Origin: an uncultured Comamonas sp.
Lineage (GTDB): Bacteria; Pseudomonadota; Gammaproteobacteria; Burkholderiales; Burkholderiaceae_C
Direction: 5' to 3'
Assembly: GCA_947306475.1 (NCBI GenBank)
Contig: CAMZGS010000001.1
Location: 372,001 to 436,000, forward strand
DNA length: 64,000 bases
This document shows, piece by piece, positions 38,492-41,637 of this stretch. The notes below the pieces were generated by a model. It was not told the origin of the DNA and made no database searches. It was given only the letters and a program-made list of their open reading frames with translations. How positions within the stretch are numbered: the stretch's first letter is position 1; the number at the start of each line of letters is the position of its first letter. The position numbers were made by a program, and so were the translations under genes.

Positions 38492-39952
38492 ATGATTTCA
38501 CGCGAACCCACTATTGAGCGCTTGGCCACGGCCAGGCAGTTGTTGCTTGAGCCGTTTGGCTTGGACGAAAGCCACCTGGCGCGGGCGCTGGCCGCCATCC
38601 GCGCCCATCAGGTGGACGATGCCGATTTGTACTTTCAGTACACCCGCACCGAGGGCTGGAGTCTGGAAGAGGGCATTGTCAAAACCGGCTCGTTTTCCAT
38701 TGACCAAGGCGTGGGCGTGCGCGCCGTCAGCGGCGAAAAAACCGCCTTTGCCTATTCGGACGATTTGTCGGTGGCTTCGCTGATGGATGCGGCGCACACC
38801 GTGCGCGCCATCGGCAGCGCAGGCAAGAGCGCCAGGGTGCGCATTCCCAAAACCAGGGTGGCGCCCAGCCGCAGCCTGTACCCGGCGCTGGACCCCATCG
38901 CCACCATGGATAGCACCGACAAGGTGCAGCTGCTGGGCCGCGTGGAAGCGCTGGCGCGCGCGCAGGACCCACGCATCGTGCAGGTGATGGCCGGCCTGGC
39001 CAGCGAGTACGACGTGGTGCTGGTCGCACGCGCCGATGGCACGCTGGCAGCCGATGTGCGCCCGCTGGTGCGCCTGTCGGTGACGGTGATTGCCGAGCAG
39101 GGCGGGCGCCGCGAGGTGGGTTCGTCCGGCGGCGGTGGCCGCTTCGGGCTGGCCTATTTTGACGATGCGCTGATTGCCGAATACGTGGGCGAGGCCGTGC
39201 GCCAGGCGCTGACCAATCTGGACGCGCGCCCGGCTCCGGCAGGCGAGATGACTGTGGTGCTCGGCCCCGGCTGGCCCGGCGTGCTGCTGCACGAAGCCGT
39301 CGGCCACGGTCTGGAAGGCGACTTCAACCGCAAGGGCTCCAGCGCCTTCAGTGGCCGCATCGGCCAGCGCGTGGCGGCCAGGGGCGTCACCATCGTGGAC
39401 GACGGCACCTTGCCCGATCGCCGTGGTTCGCTCAACATCGACGACGAAGGCCATGCCACCCAGGCCAATGTGCTGATCGAGGACGGCATCCTGGTCGGCT
39501 ACATGCAGGATGCCCTCAACGCTCGCCTGATGGGCGTGGCTCCCACCGGCAATGGCCGCCGCGAAAGCTATGCCAGCCTGCCACTGCCGCGCATGACCAA
39601 CACCTACATGCTCGGCGGCGACAAGGACCCGCGCGAAATCATTGCCAGCATCAAGAAGGGCCTGTACGCCACCAACTTCGGTGGCGGGCAGGTGGACATC
39701 ACCAGCGGCAAGTTCGTCTTCTCGGCCAGCCAGGCCTTCTGGGTGGAAAACGGCAGGATCCAGTACCCCGTCAAGGGCGCCACCCTGGTGGGCCATGGCC
39801 CGGAGTGCATGAAGAAGGTCAGCCTGATCGGCAACGACATGCGTCTGGACAGCGGCGTGGGCACCTGCGGCAAGGAAGGCCAGAGTGTGCCCGTCGGTGT
39901 GGGCCAGCCCACCATGCGCCTTGACGGTCTGACGGTGGGTGGCACCGCCTGA
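38492..39952 (+). CDS. tldD: metalloprotease TldD
   Basis: Catalytic subunit of the TldD/TldE protease, known for maturing microcin B17 and CcdA handling. The 486-residue protein holds the zinc site [11 protein letters not shown] (H-E-x-x-x-H), [28 protein letters not shown] and [19 protein letters not shown]. The ATG at 38492 is chosen because [11 protein letters not shown] starts where family members do; a TACAAT just upstream (about 38478-38483) could be a -10 box. tldE (pmbA) is not nearby. Confidence 0.95.
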
Positions 39953-39974
39953 GTGGCCACTACCGACAAAAACT

Positions 39975-40075
39975 ATAAATAAAGTAGCTTCTTGCGTTTG
40001 GTATGCCTATGTTTGGATTGGTTTTATTCCTGAAATCCATATGGAGCAGGCGCAAGAAGCTCTTTTAAAAATAGC
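39975..40075. repeat. dispersed palindromic repeat, copy 6
   Basis: AAGTAGCTTCTTGCG (39982-39996) faces CGCAAGAAGCTCTTTT (40051-40066), with TTTTATTCCTGAAATCC between. It fills the first part of the tldD-aroG gap. The small open frames across it are not convincing as genes. Confidence 0.75.
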
Positions 40076-40250
40076 AATCATCGTCGTGTGGCTGCCGCAG
40101 GGCGACATTCAGACGCCTGATGGTGTTGCGTAATTTTTATGAAATCGCACTTTTATTGCGTGCAGGCTGGAAAAATCGAGGAATCCACCGAAGCTACTGC
40201 AGTTTTGCGGTTGTCTTACAGTTTTATTGAATCTTGCGCGTGCTCTCTTG

Positions 40251-40279
40251 TTGCGCTGCGGCAAAAGTAGTGCTACATT
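40251..40279 (+). promoter_or_regulatory. candidate promoter of the aro leader
   Basis: TTGCGC (40251-40256), 17-bp spacer, TACATT (40274-40279). If used, transcription would begin only a couple of bases before the leader ATG at 40288, making the leader mRNA nearly leaderless. A weaker pair further upstream (TTGCGG 40205-40210 with TTGAAT 40227-40232) would give a normal leader. The sequence alone does not decide. Confidence 0.45.
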
Positions 40280-40287
40280 GATCCGCT

Positions 40288-40344
40288 ATGCAAACGTTCA
40301 GCGCTTTCTATTTTTACTTTTGGTTCTCGGTCCAAGGCGGATGA
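40288..40344 (+). CDS. aromatic-rich leader peptide of the DAHP synthase attenuator
   Basis: An 18-codon open frame, MQTFSAFYFYFWFSVQGG, followed by TGA. Eight residues are aromatic: five Phe, two Tyr and one Trp, eight of them within positions 4-13. It lies 126 bp before the aroG-type gene and 44 bp before an intrinsic terminator. The last codons (GGC GGA, 40336-40341) contain GGCGG, which can pair with CCGCC in the terminator's 5' arm. This is the layout of ribosome-mediated attenuation: stalling at the aromatic codons when charged tRNA is scarce would favour read-through into the biosynthetic gene. No ribosome-binding site is visible before the ATG. The peptide, pairing and terminator are seen directly; regulation is inferred. 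Confidence 0.88.
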   Translation: MQTFSAFYFYFWFSVQGG

Positions 40345-40394
40345 GAGGAAAGCGCTCGCACTGAAACGAACACACCACCTCCCAAGCAACCGCC
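40336..40394 (+). promoter_or_regulatory. candidate antiterminator helix of the aro attenuator
   Basis: GGCGG (40336-40340) pairs with CCGCC (40390-40394), and GAGG (40345-40348) pairs with CCTC (40378-40381) inside it. The CCGCC block is also the 5' arm of the terminator, so the two structures are mutually exclusive. A ribosome finishing at the TGA (40342-40344) would cover both left-hand segments and let the terminator form. Confidence 0.65.
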
Positions 40395-40421
40395 GCAGCT
40401 GCAAAGCCCGGCGGTTTTTTT
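40388..40421 (+). terminator. attenuator terminator upstream of the DAHP synthase gene
   Basis: AACCGCCG (40388-40395), a 13-base loop, CGGCGGTT (40409-40416), then a seven-base T-run (40415-40421). A textbook intrinsic terminator placed 50 bp before the aroG-type start and after the leader peptide. Confidence 0.9.
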
Positions 40422-40470
40422 ACACCCAGGTTTTTTCTTCAAGCATCCCTACGACAAACGAGGCCGATAC

Positions 40471-41637
40471 ATGACCGCTCAATACTCCCCCCCCACCGGC
40501 GATTCCTGGTACCGCAGTGCTGCCTTCAAGACTGGACAGACCGACGACGAACGTATCAAGGACATTACCGTGTTGCCCCCTCCTGAGCATCTCATCCGCT
40601 TCTTCCCCATCCACGGCACGCCTGTGGAAGCGCTGGTCAGCCAGACCCGCAGCAGCATCCAGCGCATCATGCGCAACCAGGACGATCGCCTGCTGGTCAT
40701 CGTCGGCCCCTGCTCCATCCACGACCCGCATGCCGCGATGGACTACGCCCGCCGCCTGGCCGATGTGCGTGAGCAGTACAAGGACACGCTTGAAGTGGTG
40801 ATGCGCGTGTACTTCGAAAAACCGCGTACCACCGTCGGCTGGAAGGGCCTGATCAACGACCCCTACCTGGATGGCAGCTACCGCATCGATGAGGGCCTGC
40901 GCATTGCGCGCCAGCTGCTCATCGACATCAACCGCCTGGGCGTGCCGGCGGCCAGCGAATTCCTGGACGTGATCTCGCCCCAGTACATCGGCGACCTGAT
41001 CAGCTGGGGCGCCATTGGCGCGCGCACCACCGAAAGCCAGGTGCACCGTGAGCTGGCCTCCGGCATCTCGGCGCCGATTGGCTTCAAGAACGGCACCGAC
41101 GGCAACATCCGCATCGCCACCGACGCCATCCAGTCGGCCAGCCGGGGCCACCACTTCCTGTCGGTGCACAAAAACGGCCAAGTGGCCATCGTGCACACCG
41201 CAGGCAACCAGGACTGCCACGTCATCCTGCGCGGCGGCAAGGCGCCCAATTACGACGCTGCCAGCGTGGCTGCCGCCTGCGCCGATCTGGAAAAGGCCGG
41301 GCTGCCCGCCACCTTGATGATCGATTGCAGCCACGCCAACAGCAACAAGCAGCACGAGCGCCAGAAGGACGTGGCCGCCGACATCGCCGCGCAGATTGCC
41401 GGTGGCTCGCGCCAGGTGTTCGGCGTCATGCTGGAAAGCCACCTGGTCGCCGGCGCACAGAAATTCAGCGCCGGGCAGGACGATGTGTGCAAGCTGGTCT
41501 ATGGCCAGAGCATCACCGACGCCTGCATCGGCTGGGCCGACACGGTGGATGTGATCGAGCAACTGTCCCAGGCCGTGCAGGCGCGTCGCGACCTGGCCAG
41601 GAACGCTGCCGGCGCCAGCGCCGAGCTGGTGGCCTGA
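40471..41637 (+). CDS. aroG: 3-deoxy-7-phosphoheptulonate (DAHP) synthase, class I
   Basis: First enzyme of the shikimate pathway, condensing phosphoenolpyruvate and erythrose 4-phosphate. The 388 residues show the AroFGH-type motifs: IVGPCSIHDPHAAMDYA, MRVYFEKPRTTVGWKGLINDP in part, SQYIGDL-type ISPQYIGDLISWGAIGART, GFKNGTDGNI, HTAGNQDCHVILRGG, IDCSHANSNKQHERQ and GVMLESHLVAG. The symbol is given for the family; which amino acid inhibits this isozyme cannot be read here. GAGG at about 40459-40462 precedes the ATG. Expression is very probably attenuated by the Phe/Tyr/Trp leader. A strong terminator follows. Confidence 0.93.
   Translation: MTAQYSPPTGDSWYRSAAFKTGQTDDERIKDITVLPPPEHLIRFFPIHGTPVEALVSQTRSSIQRIMRNQDDRLLVIVGPCSIHDPHAAMDYARRLADVREQYKDTLEVVMRVYFEKPRTTVGWKGLINDPYLDGSYRIDEGLRIARQLLIDINRLGVPAASEFLDVISPQYIGDLISWGAIGARTTESQVHRELASGISAPIGFKNGTDGNIRIATDAIQSASRGHHFLSVHKNGQVAIVHTAGNQDCHVILRGGKAPNYDAASVAAACADLEKAGLPATLMIDCSHANSNKQHERQKDVAADIAAQIAGGSRQVFGVMLESHLVAGAQKFSAGQDDVCKLVYGQSITDACIGWADTVDVIEQLSQAVQARRDLARNAAGASAELVA

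Follow-up and report, generated by a model that had tools for sequence, protein, structure and literature searches.

The aroG-type DAHP synthase gene of an uncultured Comamonas sp. is very likely preceded by a real and widely conserved attenuator that works in the classical mode. The gene was analyzed in a window of 64,000 nucleotides (GenBank contig CAMZGS010000001.1, positions 372,001 to 436,000), to which unmarked coordinates refer, and all of the leader features described lie on its forward strand. A more specific proposal, to which we give slightly under even chances, is that one leaderless mini-message would serve as an OR switch with three inputs: if any one of Phe, Tyr and Trp ran short, the ribosome would stall within a common 30-nt block and the shared entry step would be opened. 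The layout spans the order and reaches a second order of the class, and lineages would retune it by gaining or losing the Trp codon with Phe kept, with GGCGG free of the reading frame and otherwise rare TTT codons sharpening the response.

The leader ORF, MQTFSAFYFYFWFSVQGG, spans positions 40288 to 40344 and has 18 codons, from the ATG at 40288 to the TGA at 40342-40344; it has no Shine-Dalgarno site and is predicted to be leaderless. Eight of the 18 codons are aromatic, at positions 4 and 7-13 (F4 ... F7 Y8 F9 Y10 F11 W12 F13), and form a block at 40297-40326 that contains the predicted stall sites. Segment 1, AGCGCTTTC (40300-40308), pairs with 40348-40356 in the lowest-energy fold, as a possible 1:2 helix. 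The predicted antiterminator arm GGCGG (40336-40340) has its partner CCGCC at 40390-40394, in the 5' arm of an intrinsic terminator (40388-40421) that ends in seven T (40415-40421), and a second predicted antiterminator pairing joins GAGG (40345-40348) to CCTC (40378-40381). The aroG-type gene, encoding 388 aa (TIGR00034 aroFGH, PF00793 DAHP_synth_1), begins with the ATG at 40471 and ends at 41637. The ORF, its eight aromatic codons, the pairing segments and the aroG start had been proposed in an earlier, sequence-only reading of the region, and every coordinate agrees with the sequence. The terminator, called perfect in that reading, is not: beyond a stem of 8 bp (40388-40395 with 40409-40416), the hairpin has a small internal loop followed by three further pairs.

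The locus has a leader ORF rich in end-product codons, a terminator before the gene, an antiterminator on the 5' arm of that terminator and a pathway gene downstream, and we regard ribosome-mediated transcription attenuation of aroG, of the classical type, as highly probable. In the proposed mechanism, the RNA would start at or beside the AUG and be translated as a leaderless message. When charged tRNA is plentiful, the ribosome would reach the stop codon and keep GGCGG and GAGG unpaired, and the terminator would form. With scarce charged tRNA-Phe, and by the same logic tRNA-Tyr or tRNA-Trp, the ribosome would stall with its front edge just before GGCGG; GGCGG and GAGG could then capture CCTC...CCGCC before the 3' arm of the terminator exists, and RNA polymerase is predicted to continue into the DAHP synthase gene once the antiterminator has formed. 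RNA that is not translated would terminate.

DAHP synthases were present in 30 of the 31 relatives searched. An aromatic leader with a terminator was found in 121 of 202 regions located 5' of DAHP synthase genes, a share that should not be read as a rate, since the 202 regions include paralogues and close relatives. These regions comprise the best 80 of 588 named loci, an order sample and stretches fetched by place; the order sample consisted of 200 genomes, and the upstream regions were taken from the 101 that matched at the strict cut. Three of the 124 initial calls (L146, L147 and L169), being without the CCGCC arm, were removed as false, which left the 121. In the relatives, the aromatic codons, GGCGG and the CCGCC terminator arm were retained jointly before DAHP synthase genes, and this conservation supports the attenuator proposed in the sequence-only reading.

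Among the named loci with a family rank (best 80 of 588), the leader was present in all of those from Comamonadaceae (21/21), Sphaerotilaceae (9/9), Oxalobacteraceae (9/9) and Alcaligenaceae (1/1), and in 12 of the 17 from Burkholderiaceae; the five Burkholderiaceae loci without any leader were three of Polynucleobacter and two extra Cupriavidus copies. Single loci of Methylophilaceae, Zoogloeaceae and Gemmataceae among the matches listed had no leader, and one Devosiaceae-labelled contig among them carried it. In the order sample the leader was found at 39 of 103 DAHP synthase places (25/30 of those fetched as loci, 14/69 of those fetched by place and 0/4 from another set). The 81 of 202 regions with no accepted leader include Polynucleobacter, the extra Cupriavidus copies and most of the lower-identity places of the order sample; the "no leader" calls for L063 (40 bases upstream available) and L154 (282 in all) are weak. 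Additionally, second copies of the DAHP synthase gene were without an aromatic leader plus terminator in each of 16 genomes of the genus (16/16), among them the genome of the window; at one such copy (L208), a Trp-rich ORF with no terminator call lies 327 bases upstream.

Several individual loci deserve mention. Loss of the reading frame with retention of the terminator, which had been named beforehand as evidence against an attenuator, was seen in one case. That case is L090, one of the 12 Burkholderiaceae loci, from the nodule symbiont Candidatus Burkholderia humilis, in which the frame 5' of aroG is broken and GGCGG and the terminator are still there; it looks like a decaying attenuator. 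In the Polynucleobacter-type loci (L065-L067, L116 and L117), aroG lies so close behind tldD that there is no space for a leader and terminator, and loss of the leader is likely. Three DAHP synthase copies from Cupriavidus (L060, L061 and L115), which cluster with AroG of the Comamonadaceae type, have no leader; the genome of L115 (G166) has a second copy, L136, that does carry one. Burkholderiales-like aroG genes were also found on contigs labelled Planctomycetota, Verrucomicrobiia, Gemmataceae, Anaerolineae, Melainabacteria or Devosia (L075, L079, L087, L093, L100 and L107), of which L093 and L107 have an aromatic ORF; these contigs are likely mis-binned.

A search model built from 40 leaders was run on 120 genomes of the family, one per genus, and gave exactly one strong full-length match in 116 of them (E 1.6e-12 or better). 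The next matches began at E 7.9e-6 and mostly covered the terminator part only, one in G295 being full length (E 3.1e-5). At all 51 of the 116 matches that were checked, the 20 weakest included, aroG lay downstream on the same strand. Among 274 genomes of the class, strong matches were obtained in three of the window's family and in two of family f63, which belongs to another order; the f63 matches (E 1.1e-11 and 7.9e-9) both precede a DAHP synthase gene. The corresponding loci, L231 and L232, have a like leader, that of L231 containing ASFYFWYYFPKPLAEEG and a GCCGCC terminator. Forty-two further class genomes gave weak matches (E 1.4e-6 to 0.01), and no DAHP synthase was found near those in the 15 that were fetched. 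One of these weak matches, in L240 (genome G553, about 1501-1632 of that locus), combines a short IYYF-containing ORF with a G+C hairpin and T run, does not precede a DAHP synthase gene, and is perhaps another attenuator.

The aromatic amino acids encoded were examined in 114 distinct leaders, which have five to nine aromatic codons 5' of GGCGG. Phe is encoded in 114 of them, Tyr in 109, Trp in 81 and all three in 79. Phe is written as TTT in 0.62 of cases in the leaders compared with 0.14 in the same aroG genes, and the share is higher in 103 of 107 leaders, a bias that may favor slow decoding or unstructured RNA. An attenuator that senses Phe only, perhaps with Tyr, and in which the lone Trp codon seldom matters, has an appreciable chance of being correct, if one below even. 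The Phe codons are universal in these leaders, Trp is not, and the presence of Trp switches at least 13 times on the AroG tree; yet among close relatives of the window 64 of 70 leaders encode Trp, a rare residue, and stalling would be expected at a Trp codon inside the stall block as well.

The system closest to this one has reportedly been described by Neshat et al. (2014) as the aroR leader of aroF in Corynebacterium glutamicum. There, a Phe-Tyr-Phe leader precedes the DAHP synthase gene aroF, and ribosome stalling has been reported (PMC4046766). A review gives the response of aroR as one to Phe and not to Tyr (PMC11802643), which favors sensing of Phe only, and control by both Phe and Tyr is given in another source (PMC7356990). 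With its mixed aromatic leader peptide ahead of a DAHP synthase gene, aroR is the nearest precedent in the passages retrieved from these sources; it differs from the aroG leader in belonging to an unrelated phylum and in that those passages name no Trp, and the comparison here is one of descriptions, not of RNA sequence.

A second alternative keeps the same RNA switch downstream and assigns the sensing to the nascent peptide, which would arrest the ribosome in response to an aromatic metabolite. The sequence YFWFS recurs often among relatives of the window, in which TTT TGG TTC TC (Phe-Trp-Phe-Ser) is near-invariant even at third positions. Across the order, by contrast, the order of the aromatic residues differs among families (FYFYFFWYL, FFTGYFYFS, HWFFFGFFL), as does the C-terminus, while aromatic content stays constant, and the C-terminal residues shift with the frame of GGCGG. 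An arrest peptide is therefore set aside as improbable.

In the tail of the leader, a GGCGG-like core was found 3' of the aromatic run in 120 of the 121 leaders, as an exact GGCGG in 112 of the 120, and GGCGG was seen in 108 of 114 tails compared with 15 of 114 expected from shuffled tails. Its frame relative to the ORF is 0, 1 or 2 in 47, 7 and 66 leaders, respectively, with 9 frame changes on the tree. Within the window's genus alone, the core is read as GGC GGA TGA (SVQGG, stop), as CCG GCG GCT GAG AGG TAA (PPAAER, stop) or as GGC GGA CGA GAG GTC TAA (SVQGGREV, stop). GGCGG follows the last aromatic codon at a spacing of 10.9 +/- 2.7 nt, and the stop codon lies, more loosely, 1-29 nt beyond GGCGG (sd 6.9). 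The suggestion that the SVQGG tail is kept for RNA pairing is well supported, as GGCGG persists while its frame and the stop codon shift; the three frames, together with co-variation of the core and its flanks with the terminator arm, indicate that GGCGG is kept as RNA and not as peptide.

Co-variation was tested by pairing leaders on the AroG tree without shared branches and comparing their own with swapped segments by duplex energy. The tree is a quick one, in which 35 of 129 inner branches are well supported. As an unbiased core we took the first GGCGG after the aromatic run, ignoring the terminator; of the 121 leaders, 113 contain an exact GGCGG, and those of them on the tree gave 50 pairs. 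Own segments were favored for the whole antiterminator (24 vs 8, p 0.007, Wilcoxon 0.001) and for the core with its flanks (11 vs 2, p 0.022). The predicted co-variation of GGCGG with CCGCC is thus seen when the flanks are included, and the pentamer, being nearly invariant, says little on co-variation by itself. Taken by itself, the second helix, GAGG with CCTC, is marginal (22 vs 11; p 0.08, Wilcoxon 0.004). An unrelated segment used as the negative control gave 19 vs 18, and the terminator arms gave 16 vs 2. The 1:2 helix, which could block the antiterminator, gave 26 vs 13 (p 0.053), and such a role is suggestive only. For the base before GGCGG and the base after CCGCC, the tree offered 3 independent pairs, with which significance is unreachable; the latter base shows only about 4 changes across the tree.

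It should be mentioned that an earlier choice of core, partly biased by terminator fit, had given 23 vs 11, 13 vs 1 and 21 vs 14 and was replaced, and that no weight is given to all-against-all permutations (0 of 5000), which take no account of relatedness. L054, in which no core was found, was excluded from the core analyses, and L077 and L122, with a core call outside the tail, were excluded from the analyses of spacing, folding and promoters, from the base and frame counts, and from the first swap test and the permutations. Duplicates were collapsed to 110 leaders for the permutations, 114 for spacing and folding and 115 for the promoter and Shine-Dalgarno analysis. A lid hairpin between the pyrimidines of the Trp-Phe-Ser codons and GAGAGG was also considered; it looked persuasive on inspection in several clades and might have accounted for the near-invariant bases of the Phe-Trp-Phe-Ser codons. 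It was rejected: independent pairs gave 14 vs 9 (p 0.40), the longest runs were 6.42 vs 6.15 in shuffled sequences, duplex energy beat the shuffles in 69 of 99, and an all-against-all permutation gave 8 of 3000.

Folding was examined in the 114 leaders for the different positions of the ribosome. With everything upstream of GGCGG hidden and the 3' arm of the terminator not yet made, the antiterminator was the best fold in 114/114, a result that says little alone because a control with shuffled interiors still paired the core in 88%. A ribosome at the stop codon gave the terminator in 114/114, and no ribosome gave the terminator in 110/114 and the antiterminator in 4/114. With a stalled ribosome and the full RNA, the antiterminator stayed the best fold in only 16/114, the terminator being favored in 98/114; since the terminator usually wins at equilibrium, timing must matter, and the antiterminator must form first and persist. 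In the sequence-only reading a ribosome at the TGA would cover both pairing segments; with stop codons 1-29 nt past GGCGG in the relatives, such a ribosome need not cover GGCGG everywhere. Judging by the size of ribosome footprints, the front edge of a ribosome stalled with the last aromatic codon in its A site would lie about 10-11 nt beyond that codon, just short of GGCGG, a probable match to the spacing of 10.9 nt.

The start of the message was assessed from the sequence preceding the leader ATG. In the window, an extended -10-like box, TGC-TACATT, is located at 40271-40279, its TACATT (40274-40279) beginning 14 nt 5' of the ATG, and a weak -35-like TTGCGC (40251-40256), below the threshold of the generic scan, lies 17 nt upstream of the -10 box. 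Among the 70 leaders with an AroG that shares at least 67% identity with that of the window, 61 have a TANNNT box at -15..-12 of the ATG, with TGN ahead of the box in 59; a pyrimidine directly precedes the ATG in 65 of these 70, and Shine-Dalgarno-like 4-mers occur in 1. Among all leaders the box is present in 72 of 115, compared with 5-11 in eight control windows, and Shine-Dalgarno-like 4-mers precede 2 of 115 leaders compared with 72 of 90 aroG genes (any candidate start) or 59 of 90 (first candidate). The positioned -10 box points to a transcript start near 40286-40288, and the leader ORF is probably leaderless in the window's close relatives. Such a start is not universal, the box being at that place in only 6 of 37 more distant leaders. 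The trpL RNA of Sinorhizobium meliloti likewise begins at its leader ATG (PMC7298713), a start measured there and predicted for the aroG leader; trpL differs in counting Trp only and in controlling trpE(G).

A released short RNA or peptide could also act in trans, as described for S. meliloti trpL, with control of aroG being secondary. A leaderless RNA of about 134 nt would result from termination, much like rnTrpL (PMC7298713); however, the element precedes aroG at every family match checked and the ends of the peptide are not conserved, and we consider this reading quite improbable. Trans action may exist in addition to cis control.

The ORF is unusual for its composition, being the sole ATG ORF of 8-60 codons on either strand of the window in which 7 or more of 12 residues are aromatic; 60 simulated first-order Markov windows contained a mean of 0.00 such ORFs, with none in any. 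That the hairpin is the terminator of tldD only, and the ORF a product of chance, is most improbable of all, for although tldD is the neighbor directly 5' of the leader region and the Polynucleobacter aroG close behind tldD has neither leader nor terminator call, the ORF, GGCGG and terminator are jointly conserved with spacing and co-variation, no simulated window held such an ORF, and the hairpin lies more than 400 bp past the tldD stop.

Generic scans of the region 39950-40500 gave three sites with a simple terminator scan (0.7 +/- 0.9 expected), one of which is part of the leader hairpin, and zero promoters with a promoter scan. The region folds with ordinary stability (z -0.73), so the evidence for the attenuator is comparative and not energetic. 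Rfam covariance models gave no family at the gathering score in the leader region, and at E up to 10 neither a Trp nor a Phe leader (Trp_leader and Phe_leader being the Rfam families for enterobacterial leaders), with five chance-level matches to other families. The sole Rfam match at the gathering score in the window is a bacterial RNase P class A RNA at 2376-2712 on the forward strand.

The enterobacterial ilv leaders are an example of one leader counting several amino acids of a branched pathway, in that case the branched-chain ones. The enterobacterial trp, pheA and pheST leaders resemble the aroG leader in having codons for the pathway product and an antiterminator opposed to a terminator, and differ in that each counts a single amino acid (PMC11802643, in part). 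Predicted attenuators of aromatic-pathway genes include a Tyr-tRNA attenuator of aroF in a Shewanella screen (PMC2659441) and putative tyrA attenuators, from Merino's list, in a review of tyrA (PMC1173090); in the passages retrieved, these involve Tyr-tRNA or no named leader and belong to other lineages, with the exception of one Bordetella operon of different genes (gyrA-serC-pheA-tyrA-aroF). The retrieved parts of a survey of proteobacterial regulons name attenuation for trp and pheA (PMC5343134), and in those of an actinobacterial survey, operons for Phe or Tyr showed no conserved element (PMC1262725). Among the matches listed from the open-licence PMC literature, a scope outside which many subscription papers fall, the titles, abstract openings and passages retrieved reported no aromatic leader before aroG in Burkholderiales. 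New with respect to these precedents are the inclusion of Trp in the count, the probable leaderless start, the frame-free pairing tail and the wide spread.

The literature found holds, in the passages retrieved, little on attenuation in this bacterial branch, and the Rfam models searched include no matching family. If the three-input proposal is true, the supply of Phe, Tyr and Trp would be balanced at the first enzyme through one leader. In E. coli, the first step is carried out by three separately controlled enzymes. Moreover, the frame-shifting GGCGG is a clean natural example of a coding sequence that carries a constraint at the RNA level, and the leader may offer a practical handle on aromatic production in Cupriavidus or Comamonas.
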